Of a stretch of DNA of 64,000 nucleotides, positions 1,553 to 10,043 are shown one piece after another. The position numbers and the translations under genes are program-made. The stretch comes from an uncultured Chloroflexales bacterium (GTDB taxonomy: Bacteria > Chloroflexota > Chloroflexia > Chloroflexales > Chloroflexaceae). Below the pieces are notes generated by a model. The model was not told the DNA's origin. It searched no databases and worked only from the letters and a program-made list of their open reading frames with translations. Location: positions 62,001-126,000 of the forward strand of contig CALCJV010000029.1 in NCBI GenBank assembly GCA_937967405.1, written 5' to 3'. How positions within the stretch are numbered: position 1 is the first letter of the stretch; every line of letters begins with the position of its first letter.

Positions 1553-3103
1553 TTAGGCTGCACTCAGGAAGCTACGGGCAAACGCCAGCACATCGGGATC
1601 ATCGAAGTAGGCGTGGTGATGCACCCCGCTCTGCAAGATGCGCCCGCCCAAGAGTGGGCTGCGTGGCTCATCTACGCGGATCATGCTATCGGTACGCACG
1701 ACCAGATCATTGGGGGCTTGCAGAAAGACTTGCACCGCCAGTGATTGCAACGCCTCGCGGAAGTTCGGCTGGGGGATCGTTAGCGGGTTAAAATCGGCCG
1801 TGACTGCCGCATAGCGTGTGCCGGAGACATTGGTGGGGGCATTCAGGCGGAAGAGGAAATCGCTGGTCGGCGACATCGCCTCCAATCCCGGCAGATCAAA
1901 CAGGAGTTGGGCACTGGCCCGCAAGACCAAGCCTAGGCCCTGAATGGTAAAGGCGGTAGCCACGCCCGCATCGGCTATCGCAGTGAGCCAACTGATTGTG
2001 CTGAAGCCCATTGCCAAGAGCCGATCCCAGCGTTCATAATCGGCGATCTCCGTGCCTGCATTGGGTGTGCCAACCATCATAACGTGCTTGATCGTCAGGC
2101 GTGGGGTAGGCGTTTCGAGTTCGACCAGACTCCGCGCCACTAAGCCGCCACGACTGTGGGCGAGCAGATCGGCATGCAGGCGGAGATCGTTGGGGATGCG
2201 TTCGATCAGGGCGCGGGCATTATCCAGTGGACTCGTTAAGATCGAGGGGTGGTCATAGGCAAGGATCGCATCGTAGCGTCCGCCGAAATCTTGAATCCAG
2301 CTGTGTGGCAGGCTCCGTTCGCTGCGGCTGGTGAAGCCGTGTAGAAAGATCAGAATACGGTATTCGCGCTGCTCTGGGAAGCGGGCCCGCCACGCGCCAA
2401 TGTCATCGAGGGGATTGACGAATGTGCCATCAGGGGCCACATTCCAGATGCGGAGCGGTACTTCTTGGCGACGGATCAGGGTGTGCAGATTACTCTCGAT
2501 GGGCGCACGGATCAGATGTAGCACGCGCTCGGTTGCGCCGCCTAGCCCGCCGCGCCCGACGGCATCGAAGGGCAGGGCGGGATCGCTCGGCGGAGGGGTG
2601 TCTGTCACCAACCGATGCACGGGGAAGTGCAGTGTACCGATGCCACCAATACCGCCCATGCCCCGCCCGACAACATCGAAGGGCAAGGCTTCGTCGTCGC
2701 GCAGCTCTGGTTGGGGCAAGGCAACATCGTAGATCACGCCATCGTCGGTATGGATGGCCTGCACAAGGGCGTAACACGCCGCCTCAGCCGGATCGGGGGT
2801 GTAGGCGAGCGTGGCCATTTGCGCCTGTGCCTGCTGGTCGGATATAGCCGGCACGCTAGGCATACCAGCCACAGGGGGCAGCGATGGGCTGAGCTTGAGT
2901 GTCACGGGAGGTTGGGCTGCGCTGAAGCCGTGCTCGTGCAGGATTGGCATGGGATCGCCGGGATCGGGGCGAGCTTCACCGCGAAAGGCGATTTCATCAT
3001 CAGCGGTGGTCATGCGGGCAGTGCCCTGCATTGCTCGCATCGGATGGAGCACAAGCGATGGGCTGAGGTGTATATCGCCGATTCCGTGTAGCTGGTGTTC
3101 CAT
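1553..3103 (-). CDS. lipase/esterase-like alpha/beta hydrolase
   Basis: 516 aa from the ATG at 3103, chosen over an ATG at 3130 because a GGGAGGT Shine-Dalgarno lies just upstream of 3103. The second half carries an alpha/beta-hydrolase core: ILIFLHGFTSRSERS (oxyanion strand), LLAHSRGGLVARSLVE with the nucleophile serine in an H-S-R-G-G elbow, MMVGTPNAGTEIADYERW as in PGAP1-like lipases, and SGVHHHAYFDD near the end, which could supply the catalytic histidine. The first ~190 residues are not catalytic and hold two copies of an LPFD(V/A)VGRG motif. No signal peptide is visible, so it is probably cytoplasmic. The substrate is unknown. It heads the minus-strand operon. Confidence 0.72.
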   Translation of the reverse strand: MEHQLHGIGDIHLSPSLVLHPMRAMQGTARMTTADDEIAFRGEARPDPGDPMPILHEHGFSAAQPPVTLKLSPSLPPVAGMPSVPAISDQQAQAQMATLAYTPDPAEAACYALVQAIHTDDGVIYDVALPQPELRDDEALPFDVVGRGMGGIGGIGTLHFPVHRLVTDTPPPSDPALPFDAVGRGGLGGATERVLHLIRAPIESNLHTLIRRQEVPLRIWNVAPDGTFVNPLDDIGAWRARFPEQREYRILIFLHGFTSRSERSLPHSWIQDFGGRYDAILAYDHPSILTSPLDNARALIERIPNDLRLHADLLAHSRGGLVARSLVELETPTPRLTIKHVMMVGTPNAGTEIADYERWDRLLAMGFSTISWLTAIADAGVATAFTIQGLGLVLRASAQLLFDLPGLEAMSPTSDFLFRLNAPTNVSGTRYAAVTADFNPLTIPQPNFREALQSLAVQVFLQAPNDLVVRTDSMIRVDEPRSPLLGGRILQSGVHHHAYFDDPDVLAFARSFLSAA

Positions 3104-3149
3104 AGGTGACCTCCCAGTGGCATGCGCCAAATCGTGTATTTCCCCTTTG

Positions 3150-3177
3150 ATTATGCCACATGCACGCCAATCGTCAA
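3150..3177 (-). promoter_or_regulatory. sigma70-like promoter for the hydrolase operon
   Basis: Read on the minus strand: TTGACG (3177-3172), a 16-nt spacer and CATAAT (3155-3150). It lies 47 bp upstream of the revised start at 3103 and is divergent from the pcrA promoter. Assigned by consensus matching only. Confidence 0.5.
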
Positions 3178-3186
3178 ATTCCTGAC

Positions 3187-3215
3187 TTGACAGCCGCCCG
3201 CCAATTTCCTACCAT
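3187..3215 (+). promoter_or_regulatory. sigma70-like promoter for pcrA
   Basis: TTGACA at 3187-3192, a 17-nt spacer, and TACCAT at 3210-3215. It lies 37 bp before the chosen pcrA start at 3253, and inside the longer frame that begins at 3160, which argues against that earlier start. Confidence 0.6.
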
Positions 3216-3252
3216 ACCGGCAGAGGCCAAACATAAAGGAAGTACGCACCTG

Positions 3253-5505
3253 ATGAATACACAAGCTGATCTGTTGGCTGGGCTGAATCCAGCCCAGCAA
3301 CACGCCGCCCGCATTGTTGAGGGACCTGTGCTGGTTTTAGCCGGCCCCGGCAGCGGCAAAACGCGCCTGCTCACTCACCGCATTGCCTACTTGATTGACC
3401 CGATTGGTGTAGAGCCATATAACATTCTCGGCGTGACCTTTACCAATCGCGCTGCCCGCGAGATGCGCGAACGGCTTGAGCAGCTGGTGGGGGCGGGGCG
3501 CACCGCCGCACTGACGCTAGGCACGTTCCATAGCCTGTGTGCCCGCTTTTTGCGCCGCGATATACCGCATCTGGGGCGCGAGCGTGACTTTGTGATCTAT
3601 GATGCCGACGATCAGGAGCAGGTGCTGCGGCGCGTGCTGCGTGAGTTGCAACTGGATGAGAAGAAGTACCCGCCGCGTGCCATCAAGGGGCGCATCTCTG
3701 AAGCCAAAAACGAGTTGATCGGCGTGCACGAGTTTGCGCGAATTGTGCGCGATTACTTCGATGAGATTGTGCTGCGCTGCTACGAACGCTATCAGGCATT
3801 GCTGCACGAGAGCAACGCGCTCGACTTTGATGATCTGCTGCTGGAGACGGTGCGCCTGTTTGAGCAACACCCTGATGTGTTAGCCAAATACCACGAGCGT
3901 TACCACTACCTGCTGGTGGATGAATACCAAGATACCAACCGCGCTCAGTATGTGCTTGTGCGCCAGCTTGCTAGCCGCCACCGCAATCTGTTTGTGGTGG
4001 GCGATGAAGACCAGAGCATCTTTGGCTGGCGCGGCGCAGATATTCGCAACATTTTGCAATTCGAGGATGACTACCCCGATGCCCAAGTGATCCTGTTGGA
4101 GCAGAACTACCGTAGTACCCAAGCGATCCTTGATCTCGCCCAAGCCGTGATCCAGACCGGCGGGCAGCGCAAACGTCACAAGCGACTCTGGACCGAGAAC
4201 GGGCGTGGCACGCAAGTCACCTTGATCGAGGGCTACGATCAGGATGACGAAGCCCAGCGCGTGGCCGATGAGATTGTGCGCCTGATGGCCAGCGAGGGTT
4301 ACCAGCAGCGCGACTTCGCGGTGATGTATCGCACCAACGCCCAAAGCCGAGCGATTGAAGAAGCTCTGCTCAGTCGGCGGTTGCCCTACTATATTGTAGG
4401 CGGAACCCGCTTCTACGAGCGCAAAGAGGTGAAGGACGTATTGGCTTACCTGCGCCTGCTCGCCAATCCAGCCGATAGTGTCAGCCTTGAGCGCATCATC
4501 AATACGCCCAAGCGCGGGATCGGCACGGGCACAGTGGCCGAGTTGCAACGCTTTGCGGCGACGCAGGGCGTGCCGCTGTTCACTGCCTTGCAGCAGATAC
4601 AGAACGGCGAGCACAGCCCCTTCACCGAGCGCACCCGCACGCCGCTGCTGCGTTTCCTTGCGCTGATTGAGAGCCTCGCCGCGCAGAGTCGTGAGCTGCC
4701 GCTCCCTAAGCTGCTTGAAGCCTTGCTCGAACAGCTGGCGTTCCGTGAGTACCTGCTCAGTAGCTACGGCCCCGATGAGGGCGACGAACGCTGGGGCAAC
4801 GTGGTCGAGTTGTTCAATGTCGCCGAGGATTACACCGGCTTGGAGCAGCCCTTGCAACTGCCCGCGTTTCTTGAAGAGGTTGCGCTGGTTGCCGATCTGG
4901 ATGGTCTCAATCAAGAGCAAGCATCGGTCACGTGCATTACGCTGCACCAAGCGAAGGGACTAGAGTATCCGGTGGTGTTTATCGTGGGGCTAGAGGATGG
5001 CATTTTGCCGCATAGCCGCTCCCGTGATAATGCCAACCAGATGGACGAAGAACGCCGCTTGCTGTATGTGGGCGTGACCCGCGCCCGCGAGCGGCTGTAT
5101 CTGTTGTATGCCTTCCGGCGCAGCACCTATGGGCGTACCACCACTAGCGTGCCCTCGCCATTCCTGCGCGATATTCCGCCGCAGCTGCTCCGCAAGCCGG
5201 GCGGACGCAGCCCAAGTAGCGTGGCGGCGGCAATGGCCCTGCCGAACAGATCGCCTGCTCGCCCGCCGCAGGGGAGCCGTAGCAGCCAGATCAGCACTGG
5301 ACGGGCAGCACGCCAAGCGGCGGGCAGTGCGGCGAGCGGGCTGCGCTATCGTGCGGGCCAGCGGGTGCAGCACGCTCGCTACGGCGAGGGCATTGTGCTG
5401 AGTAGCACGCCGATGGATGGCGATGAAGAAGTTGTCGTGAACTTTAAGGGTGAGGGCAAGAAGCATATGATCGCTAGCCTTGCCAAGCTGACAGTGCTAG
5501 ATTAG
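3253..5505 (+). CDS. pcrA: ATP-dependent DNA helicase PcrA/UvrD
   Basis: 750 aa, the usual length for the family. It is a superfamily 1A 3'-5' helicase of nucleotide excision repair and replication-fork processing. All motifs are present: Walker A (LAGPGSGKTRLL), Ia (GVTFTNRAAREM), Ib (TLGTFHSLCARFLRR), II (LLVDEYQDTN), III (VVGDEDQSIFGWRGAD), IV (LLEQNYRST), V (ITLHQAKGLEYPVVF) and VI (RRLLYVGVTRARERLYL). After a low-complexity linker the C-terminus carries the Tudor-like module (GQRVQHARYGEGIVLS) that binds RNA polymerase in PcrA. The ATG at 3253 follows AAAGGAAG; a longer frame from 3160 spans the promoter and is rejected. Monocistronic, with repeat DNA downstream. Confidence 0.96.
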   Translation: MNTQADLLAGLNPAQQHAARIVEGPVLVLAGPGSGKTRLLTHRIAYLIDPIGVEPYNILGVTFTNRAAREMRERLEQLVGAGRTAALTLGTFHSLCARFLRRDIPHLGRERDFVIYDADDQEQVLRRVLRELQLDEKKYPPRAIKGRISEAKNELIGVHEFARIVRDYFDEIVLRCYERYQALLHESNALDFDDLLLETVRLFEQHPDVLAKYHERYHYLLVDEYQDTNRAQYVLVRQLASRHRNLFVVGDEDQSIFGWRGADIRNILQFEDDYPDAQVILLEQNYRSTQAILDLAQAVIQTGGQRKRHKRLWTENGRGTQVTLIEGYDQDDEAQRVADEIVRLMASEGYQQRDFAVMYRTNAQSRAIEEALLSRRLPYYIVGGTRFYERKEVKDVLAYLRLLANPADSVSLERIINTPKRGIGTGTVAELQRFAATQGVPLFTALQQIQNGEHSPFTERTRTPLLRFLALIESLAAQSRELPLPKLLEALLEQLAFREYLLSSYGPDEGDERWGNVVELFNVAEDYTGLEQPLQLPAFLEEVALVADLDGLNQEQASVTCITLHQAKGLEYPVVFIVGLEDGILPHSRSRDNANQMDEERRLLYVGVTRARERLYLLYAFRRSTYGRTTTSVPSPFLRDIPPQLLRKPGGRSPSSVAAAMALPNRSPARPPQGSRSSQISTGRAARQAAGSAASGLRYRAGQRVQHARYGEGIVLSSTPMDGDEEVVVNFKGEGKKHMIASLAKLTVLD

Positions 5506-5690
5506 GTGTTCGGTCTCAGGGGCTAGGTCTCAGGTGTTCGGTCTCAGGGACTAGGTGTCAGGTAGCAGGTAGAGCGGAGCGGTCCGTGCGCTACCGTGCT
5601 GCCTGCCCAAACTGTTGTGCGTGGTTTGTCCTCCTTGAGACCGAACACTTGACACTTAGCACCTGAGACCGAACACCCGACACCTAGCGA
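5505..5690 (+). repeat. intergenic tandem and inverted repeat cluster
   Basis: Two tandem 28-bp units begin at 5505 and 5533 (both open GGTGTTCGGTCTCAGG) and differ at two positions. The reverse complement of the 16-bp core recurs perfectly at 5662-5677, and a diverged copy lies near 5633-5648. The first unit starts on the last base of the pcrA stop codon. The arms could form a long hairpin in the pcrA transcript. Shorter modules of this kind recur elsewhere in the window. Confidence 0.8.
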
Positions 5691-5701
5691 AGGATGAGCC
5701 T

Positions 5702-6676
5702 ATGACGATCCTCATTACGGGCGGGACCGGCTTCATCGGCAGCCAGCTGGCGCGGGCGTTGTTGGCCGCAGGGCAGCGTGTGCGCCTGATGGGGCGCGAC
5801 TTCAGCCGCGTCGGGGATGTGCTGGCGGCGGGAGCCGAAGCGGTGCAAGCCGATCTGCGCGATCCGGGGCAGGTCTTTGCGGCGTGCGCGGGCGCAGCGG
5901 TGGTGTATCATGTGGGTGCGCTGTCGGCTCCGTGGGGGCGGTGGCGCGACTTCCGCGCAATCAACGTGGGGGGAACACAAGCCGTGATCGGCGGCTGCAT
6001 TCAGCATCAGGTGGGCCGCCTGATCCACGTCTCCTCGCCCAGTGTGGTCTTTGATGGGCGCGATCAATTTGACATCACTGAAGCAGCCCCCTACCCGCGC
6101 CGCCCGATCTCGGCCTATTCGGCCAGCAAGATGCTTGCCGAGCAGCGCGTGCGCCAAGCCGCCGCCCAGCTTGAAACCGTGATTATCCGCCCCAAAGCGG
6201 TGTTCGGGCTGGGCGATACAACCCTGCTGCCGCGCCTCATTGCCGCGGCCCAAGCTCAACGCTTGCCCCAGATCGGCGATGGGCAGAACCTGATTGATCT
6301 GACCTACGTAGACAATGTGGTGCATGCCCTGCAACTGGCTCGCACCGCACCGGCAGCTGTTGGCAATATCTATCACATCACCAACAATGAGCACATCAAG
6401 GTGTGGGCAATGCTCAATGAGGTGCTAGCGCGGCTGGGCATTGCGCCAATTGCGCGGCGGGTTTCCGTGCGCGGGGCACTGGCGTATGCTACAATGTTGG
6501 AAGCACGCGCCGCCCTGACCCGCCGCGAACCGCTCTTGACGCGCTATACCGTAGCGATCCTCGCCCGCTCGCAGACCTATGACATTGCCGCTGCCCAGCG
6601 TGATCTCGGCTATGCTCCCCTCGTCAGTGTGCAGGAGGGGATTGAACGCACACTTGCTCGCCTTGGTGACACCTAA
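5702..6676 (+). CDS. NAD(P)-dependent dehydrogenase, OleD-like
   Basis: 324 aa extended short-chain dehydrogenase. A Rossmann glycine motif (ILITGGTGFIGSQLA) opens the protein; the catalytic YSASK follows SPSVVF. Two stretches, SAPWGRWRDFRAINVGGTQ and NLIDLTYVDN, closely resemble OleD of the long-chain olefin pathway, which reduces a beta-keto acid to a beta-hydroxy acid. The ATG at 5702 follows GAAGGATGAG. It leads a plus-strand set with a metallo-beta-lactamase-fold hydrolase, an adenylate-forming enzyme and a KASIII-like synthase, which fits action on a freshly condensed beta-keto acyl product. The exact substrate is inference; sterol-type 3-beta-HSD activity is the alternative. Confidence 0.85.
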   Translation: MTILITGGTGFIGSQLARALLAAGQRVRLMGRDFSRVGDVLAAGAEAVQADLRDPGQVFAACAGAAVVYHVGALSAPWGRWRDFRAINVGGTQAVIGGCIQHQVGRLIHVSSPSVVFDGRDQFDITEAAPYPRRPISAYSASKMLAEQRVRQAAAQLETVIIRPKAVFGLGDTTLLPRLIAAAQAQRLPQIGDGQNLIDLTYVDNVVHALQLARTAPAAVGNIYHITNNEHIKVWAMLNEVLARLGIAPIARRVSVRGALAYATMLEARAALTRREPLLTRYTVAILARSQTYDIAAAQRDLGYAPLVSVQEGIERTLARLGDT

Positions 6677-6747
6677 ACCCGAATACCTGACACCCGTCAC
6701 CGAATACCTGACACCTGACACCCGTTACCTGACACCTGTCACCTGAG
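6677..6747 (+). repeat. short CCTGACACC repeat block
   Basis: Between the dehydrogenase and the hydrolase gene, units of the type TACCTGACACC occur four times in 71 bp with small variations. This is the same module family as at 5505-5690, 51190-51380, 55620-55665 and 59178-59350. No promoter is evident, so read-through from the upstream gene is likely. Confidence 0.75.
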
Positions 6748-6753
6748 ATTACT

Positions 6754-7602
6754 ATGCTTGATCACTGGCTCCTGCTTGATACTGGCTTCTGCCGCGTCTC
6801 TGCCCACCACGTCATGCGCGGCGCACCGCACCAGCCGATGGATTGCCACGCACTTGTTGCGCTGCTGCACCACCCACAGCAGGGCTGGATCATGTGGGAT
6901 AGTGGCTATGCGCCGCGCATGCTCACTGCCACGCAACCTATGCCCTACCGCCTGTATCGCCTTGCAACACCGTTACACATCCGCCCAGAGCAGAGCGTGA
7001 TCGCCCAGTTGCCTGCACTCGGCATTGATCCGCAGGCGATCCGCACGATCATCATCTCGCACTTTCACGCCGATCACCTCGCCGGATTACACGATTTCGC
7101 GCACGCCCGCCTGATTGCCAGTGCGCCCGCCTACGCCCATGTGCAGGGTCAGCGCGGGCTAGCAGCTCTGCGGCGCGGCTTCATTCCGGACTTGCTCCCG
7201 CCCGATTTTGGTGAGCGGGTACGCCTGCTTATGCCCGCCGATTTTCAAGGCGTACCGCTCCCCGCGCTCGGTGCAACCTGCGATCTCTTTGGCGATGGGC
7301 TACTCCAAGCGGTGTGGCTGCCGGGCCATGCGCGGGGGCAGATCGGGCTACTCGCCCGCACGCACACAGGCGATATTCTGCTTGCGGCCGATGGCTGCTG
7401 GACGACGGAAGCCTACCGCGAGCTGCGCCCGCCGCACCGCCTGACGCACCTATTTGTAGATAATCCGGTGGCGGTGGGGCAGACCCTGCATGCGCTGCAC
7501 CACTTTGCCCGTGCCCGCCCCGCCGTGCGGATTATCCCGACCCACTGCCCGGCCATGCTCGCCTATGTGACGCGCCCCGTTGGGCCTGTGCCGGCCCCGT
7601 GA
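6754..7602 (+). CDS. metallo-beta-lactamase-fold hydrolase
   Basis: 282 aa. The zinc-binding signature SHFHADHLAGL (HxHxDH) is intact. It is followed by LPGHARGQIGLL with the further metal histidine, LLAADGCW with the bridging aspartate, and PTHCPA near the end. The order and spacing fit the N-acyl-homoserine-lactonase/glyoxalase II branch, so hydrolysis of an ester, lactone or thioester is expected. The last four bases (ATGA) overlap the start of the next gene, so the two are translationally coupled. In this cluster it may take the place of the alpha/beta hydrolase OleB, which is absent. That role is inference. No signal peptide. Confidence 0.85.
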   Translation: MLDHWLLLDTGFCRVSAHHVMRGAPHQPMDCHALVALLHHPQQGWIMWDSGYAPRMLTATQPMPYRLYRLATPLHIRPEQSVIAQLPALGIDPQAIRTIIISHFHADHLAGLHDFAHARLIASAPAYAHVQGQRGLAALRRGFIPDLLPPDFGERVRLLMPADFQGVPLPALGATCDLFGDGLLQAVWLPGHARGQIGLLARTHTGDILLAADGCWTTEAYRELRPPHRLTHLFVDNPVAVGQTLHALHHFARARPAVRIIPTHCPAMLAYVTRPVGPVPAP

Positions 7603-9023
7603 AGACAACCCTCGTTACAGCGTATCATTGGCTCCAAGCCCACCTGCGCTGGCACACCTTGCGCGGCGCACGCTTGCGCCAGTACCAGCACCAACGGGCC
7701 CAACACATGATCGCATGGGCATGGCAGCACACGCCCGGCTATCGCCGCCATTGGCAGGCGGCCGGCTACGATCTGGCGCAGGCGCAGCAGGCGTGGGCGC
7801 AGCTCCCGTTGATCCACCGTGCCACCCAATTAGCTGACTTTGTTGGGTTTAATGCGTATGGGATCACTCGTGCGGCTGCGCTCGCCGTTGCCCAAGCAGC
7901 CGAACAGCCCAACCAGATCGCGCCGAGCCTGCCCCACGCGATCAGTGCAGGCTTATCATCAGGCACGGCGGGGGCGGCCCAGCGCGGGCTGTTTCTGGCA
8001 AGCCCCACCGAGCGGGCGATTTGGGCGGGGGTGATCCTTGCGCGGGCCCTGCCGCCGCTCGCGCAGATGCTGCGCCACGCCCGCACAGGCTACCGCGTTG
8101 CACTGTTTCTACGGGCCCACAACCAGCTCTACACCGCAGCCAGCGGGCGCATGGTGCAGGTGCGCTACGCTAGCCTTGCGGAGGCGCAGCGTGATCCGGC
8201 GCAGGCACTAGCCCAATTGGTGCAGTGGCAACCACACGCCATTGTTGCCCCGCCGAGCTTGCTGGTGCAGCTGGCCCACCTGCCTGCCGCTACGCACCTG
8301 CACCCAGAGCGGTTGGTGAGTGTGGCGGAGGTGCTCGAGCCACACGATCACGCACTCCTAGCGGCGCGGTGGGCTGTGCCCGTGCAGCAGATCTATCAGG
8401 CCACAGAGGGGGTGTTGGCGATCACGTGCCAAGCCGGACGCTTGCACCTGCAAGCCGATCTGATCGCCTTTCAGCTAGTGCCCGTGCCCGACGCTGATCC
8501 GGCGTTAGGCTACATGCAGCCAATTATCACCGATCTATGGCGCACCACCCAGCCGATGCTGCGCTTTGCGCTCGATGATGTGGTCCAGCTTGATCCGCGA
8601 CCATGCCCGTGTGGATCGGGAATGCCTGTGCTCCAAGCCGTGATCGGGCGAGCCAGCGACTTGCTCTACCTGCCGCGCAGTGATGGGCGCGGGCGGCGCG
8701 TTGTGCCCGTTGCCAGCGTGCGTTGGATGGTGGGCATAGGCGGCCGCGAAGACCATACCGAAAGCGCAATGTGGGATGGTGTGCCCCTTGCAGGCGTTAG
8801 GGATTATCAGCTAGAGCAGGTGCAGGTGGGGCAGTGGCGTGTGCGGCTTGGGCTTGAGCCGCACACCGATGCGGCCGCAATAGTGGCGGCGGTGCAGGCG
8901 CGGGTGCAGGCATGGGCGGTGCAGCACGGGTGCGTACCGCCACAGGTGCAGGTGCTGCCAGAGCTTGGGCCGCTTACGCCCGGCAGCAAACGCCGCCGGA
9001 TTATCGTACCTTCAACCGATTGA
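7599..9023 (+). CDS. F390 synthetase-related adenylate-forming enzyme
   Basis: 474 aa. It resembles the PaaK/coenzyme-F390-synthetase branch of adenylate-forming enzymes, in particular the putative adenylate-forming family often labelled F390 synthetase-related. Visible features are the phosphate-binding loop region AISAGLSSGTAGAAQRGLF (about 110-130), a QIYQATEGVLAI motif (about 265) equivalent to the YxxTE signature, and a Cys-rich turn PRPCPCGSGMPVL followed by IGRASDLLYL, as in PaaK-like enzymes. It probably activates a carboxylic acid as acyl-AMP. ATG overlaps the upstream stop; the KASIII-like gene follows 15 bp later. It may fill the OleC position of the cluster, although it is not an OleC homologue by sequence. 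Confidence 0.8.
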   Translation: MKTTLVTAYHWLQAHLRWHTLRGARLRQYQHQRAQHMIAWAWQHTPGYRRHWQAAGYDLAQAQQAWAQLPLIHRATQLADFVGFNAYGITRAAALAVAQAAEQPNQIAPSLPHAISAGLSSGTAGAAQRGLFLASPTERAIWAGVILARALPPLAQMLRHARTGYRVALFLRAHNQLYTAASGRMVQVRYASLAEAQRDPAQALAQLVQWQPHAIVAPPSLLVQLAHLPAATHLHPERLVSVAEVLEPHDHALLAARWAVPVQQIYQATEGVLAITCQAGRLHLQADLIAFQLVPVPDADPALGYMQPIITDLWRTTQPMLRFALDDVVQLDPRPCPCGSGMPVLQAVIGRASDLLYLPRSDGRGRRVVPVASVRWMVGIGGREDHTESAMWDGVPLAGVRDYQLEQVQVGQWRVRLGLEPHTDAAAIVAAVQARVQAWAVQHGCVPPQVQVLPELGPLTPGSKRRRIIVPSTD

Positions 9024-9038
9024 AAGGATGCACATACA

Positions 9039-10043
9039 ATGACTCAGCTTCCGATCCAGATTGCTGGCATCGGGCACTATCTGCCCCAACAGCAGATCAG
9101 CAGTAGCGACCTTGCGACCCGCCTCGAACTTCCCCATGATTGGATCGCCGCGAAAACTGGCGTACATACGCGCCACTACGCCAATCTCGCCGCCGGTGAG
9201 ACGACCGTTGGGATGGGGTCCGCGGCGGCTCGTATGGCCCTGATCCACGCTAACATACACGTGGATCAGCTTGACGTAATTGTGGCGGCGGCAACCGGTG
9301 CCGAGCAGCTCATTCCCTGCACAGCGGTACTCTTACAACGTGCACTTGGCGCACCGGAAGGGCAAAGTGTCTGCTTTGATGTGAATGCCACGTGTATGAG
9401 TTTTCTGGTTGCACTGCATCTCGTGGCGGCCCAAGTGGCGATGGGAGTGTATCAGACGGCTCTGATCGTGACAAGCGAGATTGCCTCAACCTCGCTCAAC
9501 CCGCGTGAGCCGGAAAGTGCCGCCCTGTTTGGCGATGCGGCCGCAGCGGTGGTCGTGCGGCGCACACCAAGCGGCTCGTCGAGTGCGCTGTGCCATACCC
9601 GTTTGGCCACCTACAGCAGTGGTTCGGCGTATATTGTGGGCTTGGGGGGCGGTACACGCCATCACCCGAATGATCCGACCACTACGCCAGAGATGAACAT
9701 GTTTCACATGGAAGGGCCGCGAGCGTACTTGCAAGTCTTTCGCACGCTGCCGCCGTTTCTAGATACGTTCTTTGCGGAGGTAGGCTGGCGGCGCGAGGAG
9801 ATTGCGGCGGTAGTGCCGCATCAAGCCAGCCAGCACGGGCTTGATCTACTGACCCAGCGACTCCGCTTTCGAGCTGAACAGGTGGTGGCTAATCTCGCAA
9901 CACGCGGCAATACAGTAGCGGCTTCGATCCCGCTAGCCTTGAGCGAGGCGGTGCAGGCTGGGCGCATTCGGCGCGGCGATAGGCTAGCTCTAATCGGGGC
10001 CGGGGCGGGGCTAACGCTCGGCGCAATGGCGTTGGTGTATTAG
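9039..10043 (+). CDS. KASIII/OleA-like condensing enzyme
   Basis: 334 aa thiolase-fold 3-oxoacyl-ACP synthase III family protein. The catalytic triad is visible: Cys in DVNATCMSFLVAL (about 113), His in AVVPHQASQHGLD (about 262) and Asn in TRGNTVAASIPLAL (about 292). It ends in GAGAGLTLGAMALVY, the usual KASIII glycine loop. The start at 9039 follows GAAAGGATG with good spacing. No ACP or other fatty-acid synthesis gene is adjacent; the partners are a dehydrogenase, a hydrolase and an adenylating enzyme. That context favours a head-to-head or specialised Claisen condensation (OleA-like) over housekeeping FabH. This is inferred from the neighbours. Confidence 0.87.
   Translation: MTQLPIQIAGIGHYLPQQQISSSDLATRLELPHDWIAAKTGVHTRHYANLAAGETTVGMGSAAARMALIHANIHVDQLDVIVAAATGAEQLIPCTAVLLQRALGAPEGQSVCFDVNATCMSFLVALHLVAAQVAMGVYQTALIVTSEIASTSLNPREPESAALFGDAAAAVVVRRTPSGSSSALCHTRLATYSSGSAYIVGLGGGTRHHPNDPTTTPEMNMFHMEGPRAYLQVFRTLPPFLDTFFAEVGWRREEIAAVVPHQASQHGLDLLTQRLRFRAEQVVANLATRGNTVAASIPLALSEAVQAGRIRRGDRLALIGAGAGLTLGAMALVY

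Follow-up and report, generated by a model that had tools for sequence, protein, structure and literature searches.

Genes at the locus

The 64,000-nucleotide stretch analysed here (assembly GCA_937967405.1 of an uncultured Chloroflexales bacterium, contig CALCJV010000029.1, positions 62,001 to 126,000; hereafter the window) carries at positions 5702-10043 four neighbouring genes that we consider as a candidate lipid-biosynthesis cassette. Families were assigned by NCBIfam, Pfam and PDB sequence searches. The first gene (5702..6676, + strand) encodes a 324-aa OleD-like enzyme, an NAD(P)-dependent 3-beta-hydroxysteroid dehydrogenase/extended short-chain dehydrogenase/reductase (SDR; NCBIfam NF042423/NF042422, 235 bits). 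It is followed by genes for a 282-aa metallo-beta-lactamase (MBL)-fold hydrolase with a complete di-metal site and a fold of the N-acyl-homoserine lactone (AHL) lactonase type (6754..7602, +; PF00753), a 474-aa F390-synthetase-related adenylate-forming enzyme with a GTG start (7599..9023, +; TIGR02304, 231.6 bits) and a 334-aa condensing enzyme of the beta-ketoacyl-acyl carrier protein synthase III (KASIII) fold with Cys119, His261 and Asn291 (9039..10043, +; PRK07204/FabH), here called KAS. All four reading frames are intact. The MBL stop and the GTG start of the F390-related gene share a 4-base overlap and the KAS start lies 15 bases past the F390-related stop, which confirms the tight linkage of the last three genes proposed in the original prediction; a 77-base gap containing a local repeat separates the OleD-like gene from the MBL gene. 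That prediction had also recognized the OleD-like, F390-related and MBL-fold enzymes, although it did not list the genes in their true order (OleD-MBL-F390-KAS), and its view of the condensing enzyme as OleA-like did not hold, as described below.

Distribution and joint inheritance

Aligned sequences of the F390-related enzyme were used to scan GTDB genomes, which revealed at least 536 relatives among the 593 pattern matches listed. The loci of the best 80 of these at least 536 relatives, ranked by similarity to the window F390-related protein, were compared. All four families were found within 6 kb and on one strand in 65 of the 80 loci. Eleven of the 15 incomplete loci are situated close to the end of a contig; without these, 65 of 69 loci are complete, in agreement with the constant co-occurrence that the original prediction called for. 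Adjacency of the four families in 65 of 80 loci is far more than chance would give, and it rules out a local one-off cluster. Cassette hosts belong to Chloroflexota, Bacillota, Pseudomonadota, Gemmatimonadota, Armatimonadota, Acidobacteriota, Bacteroidota, Chlamydiota, Campylobacterota and Actinomycetota, and one Fusobacterium record also carries the cassette. Three gene orders occur among the complete loci: KAS-OleD-MBL-F390 (43 loci), the window's OleD-MBL-F390-KAS (18) and KAS-MBL-F390-OleD (4). The OleD-MBL and MBL-F390 pairs almost always abut, with median gaps of -22 and -8 when longest-frame starts are used. In two cyanobacterial loci (L083 and L087) an OleD-MBL-F390 set has no KAS nearby, and the condensing activity may come from elsewhere.

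In a mirror-tree comparison of 53 dereplicated loci, pairwise distances of the four families correlated with r of 0.58-0.78, and none of 1000 permutations gave values as high. Such a correlation of sequence distances shows joint inheritance and is by itself no proof of function. By their sequences the four genes behave as one inherited unit across many phyla, and they almost certainly form one functional unit. All four enzymes keep their catalytic residues, as detailed for each of them below.

The condensing enzyme

Among 72 cassette KAS sequences, Cys119 is conserved in all 72, His261 in 71 and Asn291 in 70; the exceptions are gaps. In OleA, Glu117 from the partner subunit is the general base (PMC7064751, PMC4578411), and Glu117 followed by Pro was used as the OleA residue criterion. 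Glu occupies this position in three of three OleA controls taken from related genomes. In contrast, the cassette KAS have Ile (62), Leu (6), Met (3) or Val (1) there and never Glu (0/72); the window residue is Ile92, at the position of E. coli FabH Phe87. CorB has Val in our alignment, in line with the Val (Val94) reported for MxnB and CorB, which were placed in the FabH clade (PMC4578411). In our trees cassette KAS, CorB and MxnB form one clade (support 98/97) apart from OleA (100/100) and from housekeeping FabH (100/99); a separate FabH of the window's genome (L126) sits in the FabH clade. The absence of Glu117 and the position outside the OleA clade rule out an OleA-type condensing enzyme, and the cassette KAS are best described from these comparisons as a distinct KASIII clade that lacks the OleA glutamate. 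Since the glutamate base is absent and the enzyme groups with CorB and MxnB, the partner substrate of KAS probably supplies its own acidic alpha-carbon.

A route of the Ole type that starts with OleA-like condensation is therefore very unlikely, even though the set contains an OleD-like enzyme and an adenylating enzyme and some cassettes have OleC (see below): Glu117 is missing, KAS stands outside an OleA clade with 100% support, and OleB is not in the cassette. Among 41 related genomes, OleA over cut-off was found in 15 and the F390 cassette in nine, with no overlap; this is suggestive of OleA and the cassette being alternatives, and it is weak evidence because the families differ.

The corallopyronin and myxopyronin ketosynthases CorB and MxnB share with cassette KAS the KASIII clade, the missing Glu base and a GGG(S/T)RxHPN..TTPE loop, with Ile, Leu, Met or Val in cassette enzymes where CorB and MxnB have Val. 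One could thus imagine that KAS joins two chains in the manner of CorB and MxnB to give an alpha-pyrone or similar signal, which the other genes, among them a hydrolase of lactonase-like fold, tailor or degrade. We regard this as highly improbable: a ketoreductase would remove the keto group that a pyrone needs, and CorB and MxnB form pyrones in polyketide synthase (PKS) pathways, where they act on PKS carrier proteins, whereas cassette KAS is accompanied by a reductase, a ligase and a hydrolase and no PKS lies beside the window cassette.

Window KAS scored 216.5 bits with the FabH model TIGR00747, below its cut-off of 292.1, and just passed that of the broader subfamily PRK09352 (251 vs 249). 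The E. coli FabH positions of the acyl carrier protein (ACP) interface, Lys214, Arg249, Lys256 and Lys257, correspond to L231, H266, Q273 and R274 in the window; in the cassette family basic residues are mostly kept at positions 214, 256 and 257, and Arg249 is present in 6 of 72. FabH Trp32 is mostly kept, while Arg151, like Arg249, is mostly replaced. These features bear on a FabH-type route without any lactone, in which KAS would condense acyl-CoA (CoA, coenzyme A) or acyl-carrier with malonyl-ACP in a decarboxylating reaction, the SDR would yield a 3-hydroxyacyl chain, the MBL protein would act as a thioesterase, and the F390-related ligase would couple the 3-hydroxy acid to CoA, to an amino acid or to a sugar. 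The Cys-His-Asn residues, Trp32 and the basic residues at 256 and 257 are as such a route would have them; the replaced arginines and the separate clade with CorB and MxnB speak against it. We consider it possible but rather doubtful, for a further reason given by the adenylating enzyme.

The reductase and the metallo-hydrolase

The window SDR scored 235 bits with the OleD equivalog, for which the cut-off is 580, yet this was its best-scoring family, and in the tree the reductase belongs to the same wider family as OleD. Given this score we treat it as an OleD relative and do not name it OleD. The GGTGFIG motif is kept in the window protein, and Ser111, Tyr139 and Lys143 are found in 66 of 66 homologues.

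The metal ligands of the hydrolase (H103, H105, D107, H108, H192, D213 and H264, an HxHxDH, His, Asp, His site) are likewise present in 66 of 66 homologues. An AlphaFold2 model of the protein (mean predicted local distance difference test score, pLDDT, of 94.8) has AHL lactonases and 4-pyridoxolactonase as its nearest solved folds (Z 27-29.5, root-mean-square deviation 2.4-2.8 A). Fold and di-metal ligands are thus common to the cassette hydrolase, AHL lactonases such as AiiA, AhlX and GcL, and 4-pyridoxolactonase. The proteins differ in the AHL-lactonase active-site Tyr (AiiA Tyr194), which is Trp216 in the window; Trp is found in 63 of 66 cassette members and Tyr in 3. With lactonase models the window hydrolase scored 73.8 bits against a cut-off of 390. 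Degradation of AHL signals was judged unlikely because the hydrolase is a constant member of a biosynthetic set and the lactonase Tyr is replaced. The fold would suit lactone opening as well as thioester cleavage. MBL-fold thioesterases have a PqsE-like precedent, which is a point in favour of the FabH-type route.

The adenylating enzyme and its exchange for OleC

The window F390-related protein falls 20 bits short of the TIGR02304 cut-off (231.6 vs 251.9 bits, E 1.7e-68) and is homologous along its whole length to TIGR02304 members over the cut-off. The adenylation motifs GLSSGTSG and YQxTEG and the C-terminal Lys464 are invariant or nearly so in 66 homologues. The nearest folds to the model (pLDDT 85.4) are PaaK-type ligases, NatL2 among them. 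Sequence relatedness, predicted fold and intact adenylation motifs link the window enzyme to the TIGR02304/PaaK ligases, and the PaaK-like fold agrees with the ligase of the FabH-type route. In the literature searched we found no function described for TIGR02304.

Since the 80 GTDB loci had been picked for their resemblance to the window protein, a sample of 301 Chloroflexota genomes provides a less selective view. A strong F390-related match (above 370 bits, the next being at 184) was present in 17 genomes, and 14 of them have cassette KAS within about 5 kb; KAS is on another contig in two of the remaining three (G252 and G032) and absent in one (G136). Matches to the KAS clade above 338 bits numbered 29, the next group, housekeeping FabH-like, starting from 291, and 13 of the 29 were in genomes without a strong F390 match. 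Five of these 13 genomes (G113, G057, G099, G320 and G292) come from one family, f13. In all five an OleC-OleD-MBL-GNAT-KAS-ATP-grasp set is arranged in identical order on one strand. The OleC-family protein that is the first gene of the set in locus L177 scored 538 bits with PRK09274 (cut-off 478). In the trees the KAS of the exchange loci lie within the clade of cassette KAS (98/97; inner group 98/91) and their OleD fall among cassette OleD, and their GNAT and ATP-grasp (PRK06849) genes belong to the same accessory families as those beside F390-type cassettes. No OleA over cut-off was found in the five genomes.

An OleC-family enzyme thus holds the adenylating slot in one family of Chloroflexota, the phylum in which the exchange was looked for, and the F390-related enzyme holds it in most lineages. 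This exchange is the best evidence for the job of the F390-related enzyme: as an OleC-family enzyme takes its place in the same set, the F390-related enzyme probably stands in for OleC. The FabH-type route gives no reason for an OleC-family enzyme in that position. In this respect the original idea of a different fold in the same slot was borne out. The absence of oleBC, named there as a check, was borne out in part: in the genome of the window (assembly 88% complete) nothing scored over cut-off with the OleA and OleC models, and OleB, for which no genome-wide search was made, was not seen in the cassette.

Accessory genes and the E. coli version

Among the 80 F390 loci an ATP-grasp gene (PRK06849) is present in 39 and a GNAT-like gene in 29. 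The cassette is found as a seven-gene set in 672 of 5,426 complete E. coli genomes (about 12%), between narI and two tRNA-Tyr genes (the rtT/tRNA-Tyr region). The three extra genes encode a PAP2 phosphatase, a fatty-acid-hydroxylase family protein and an acyl-CoA desaturase, and such lipid-modifying partners support a lipid product. In E. coli NRG 857C (L192) the set occupies positions 2501-9382 of the locus, and it is also present in L033 (NZ_CP141085.1). The latter record, an E. coli "plasmid" of 386 kb, bears narGHJI, purU and rss genes and is a piece of chromosome, either misassembled or excised as a large segment.

In the window the cassette is reduced to its four core genes, as the gene upstream looks, by its sequence, like a UvrD/PcrA-type helicase and the genes downstream are on the opposite strand. 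Short tandem and inverted repeats (TGACACCTGACACC-like, 21-base spacing) occur at 5504-5690 and 6667-6743, on both sides of the OleD-like gene. About 20 similar stretches are found elsewhere in the window's genome, so the repeats represent a dispersed intergenic repeat and not a cassette feature.

No function of the E. coli set was found in the literature searched. Full-text searches on the F390-related family, the gene set, related pathways and the E. coli island found no description of the gene set, many subscription papers being outside these searches, so that novelty is unproven. In a ladderane study an F390-synthetase-annotated gene lies beside a type II fatty acid synthase cluster without the KAS-OleD-MBL context (PMC2649909).

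A proposed route

The cassette resembles the OleABCD olefin and oleACD beta-lactone pathways in having an OleD-family reductase, an ATP-using carboxyl activator and a KASIII-fold condensing enzyme, and in the OleC-family enzyme that holds the activating slot in one Chloroflexota family. It differs from them in that the window has an F390-related enzyme for OleC, a metallo-hydrolase for the alpha/beta-hydrolase OleB, and a KAS from a clade separate from that of OleA. There is an even chance, in our estimate, that it is a conserved lipid-biosynthesis cassette that performs Ole-like chemistry with other parts. Joint inheritance of the four families, the OleC exchange, the missing Glu117 and the lactonase-like fold of the hydrolase speak for this reading. 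In such a route KAS would condense an acyl thioester with a partner whose alpha-carbon is acidic already (a malonyl- or beta-ketoacyl-carrier, as with FabH or CorB/MxnB) to give a beta-keto chain, which the OleD-like SDR would reduce to the beta-hydroxy chain. The MBL hydrolase may free the acid from its thioester or open a lactone, and the F390-related enzyme would convert the beta-hydroxy acid to its acyl-AMP. The latter could close to a beta-lactone, as with OleC, or be trapped by an amine, alcohol or thiol. In other hosts accessory genes (ATP-grasp, GNAT and glycosyltransferases; in E. coli the phosphatase, hydroxylase and desaturase) may decorate the product to a polar lipid; the ATP-grasp, GNAT and glycosyltransferase neighbours would suit the decorated lipid of the FabH-type route as well.

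Which substrates are used, whether hydrolase or ligase acts first and what is finally made are inferred. That the F390-related enzyme works in OleC's slot on a beta-hydroxy acid seems to us about evenly balanced; that it forms a lactone is a tentative suggestion. The product may be a beta-lactone, an ester or amide lipid, or another compound. An olefin, one of the products originally suggested, is very improbable because no OleB-type decarboxylase was seen in the cassette.

Several observations weigh against Ole-like chemistry. F390-related and PaaK enzymes usually form CoA thioesters or amides. The OleC-family enzyme of L177 scored 471 and 460 bits with olefin beta-lactone synthetase equivalogs whose cut-offs are 900 and 850, so lactone formation by the exchange enzyme is assumed. 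The five exchange genomes are all of one family and possibly reflect a single event. Two Chloroflexota loci (L148 and L182) have KAS-MBL-OleD sets with no adenylating enzyme within the stretch, and cassette-clade KAS stands alone, with none of the other three genes nearby, in L146, L184 and L190, from the window's own family; KAS thus also works without the adenylating enzyme. The replaced active-site Tyr of the hydrolase counts on the same side. In place of an adenylating enzyme, locus L182 has another KAS, of the FabH type, along with a P450-like gene and a glycosyltransferase.

Significance

The "new wiring" of the Ole scheme that had been proposed for this locus is not peculiar to the window genome; it turned out to be a broad, apparently undescribed cassette. 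A four-enzyme set so constant over phyla, and present in 672 E. coli genomes, probably makes something useful. The exchange of OleC for the F390-related enzyme provides a concrete hypothesis for a large family of adenylating enzymes annotated by resemblance alone. Somewhat speculatively, F390-related enzymes may have evolved separately as a second class of enzymes that form beta-lactones (or beta-hydroxyacyl-AMP). Together with a KAS resembling CorB, a reductase of the OleD type and a hydrolase of lactonase fold, they would constitute a widespread lipid pathway without a described product, found in E. coli, streptococci, fusobacteria, bacilli and Chloroflexota. If so, beta-lactone-type activation would be far commoner, E. 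coli included, than the OleC family suggests. The gene sets compared here suggest an uncharacterised lipid route that follows the same logic as the bacterial olefin pathway with different parts.

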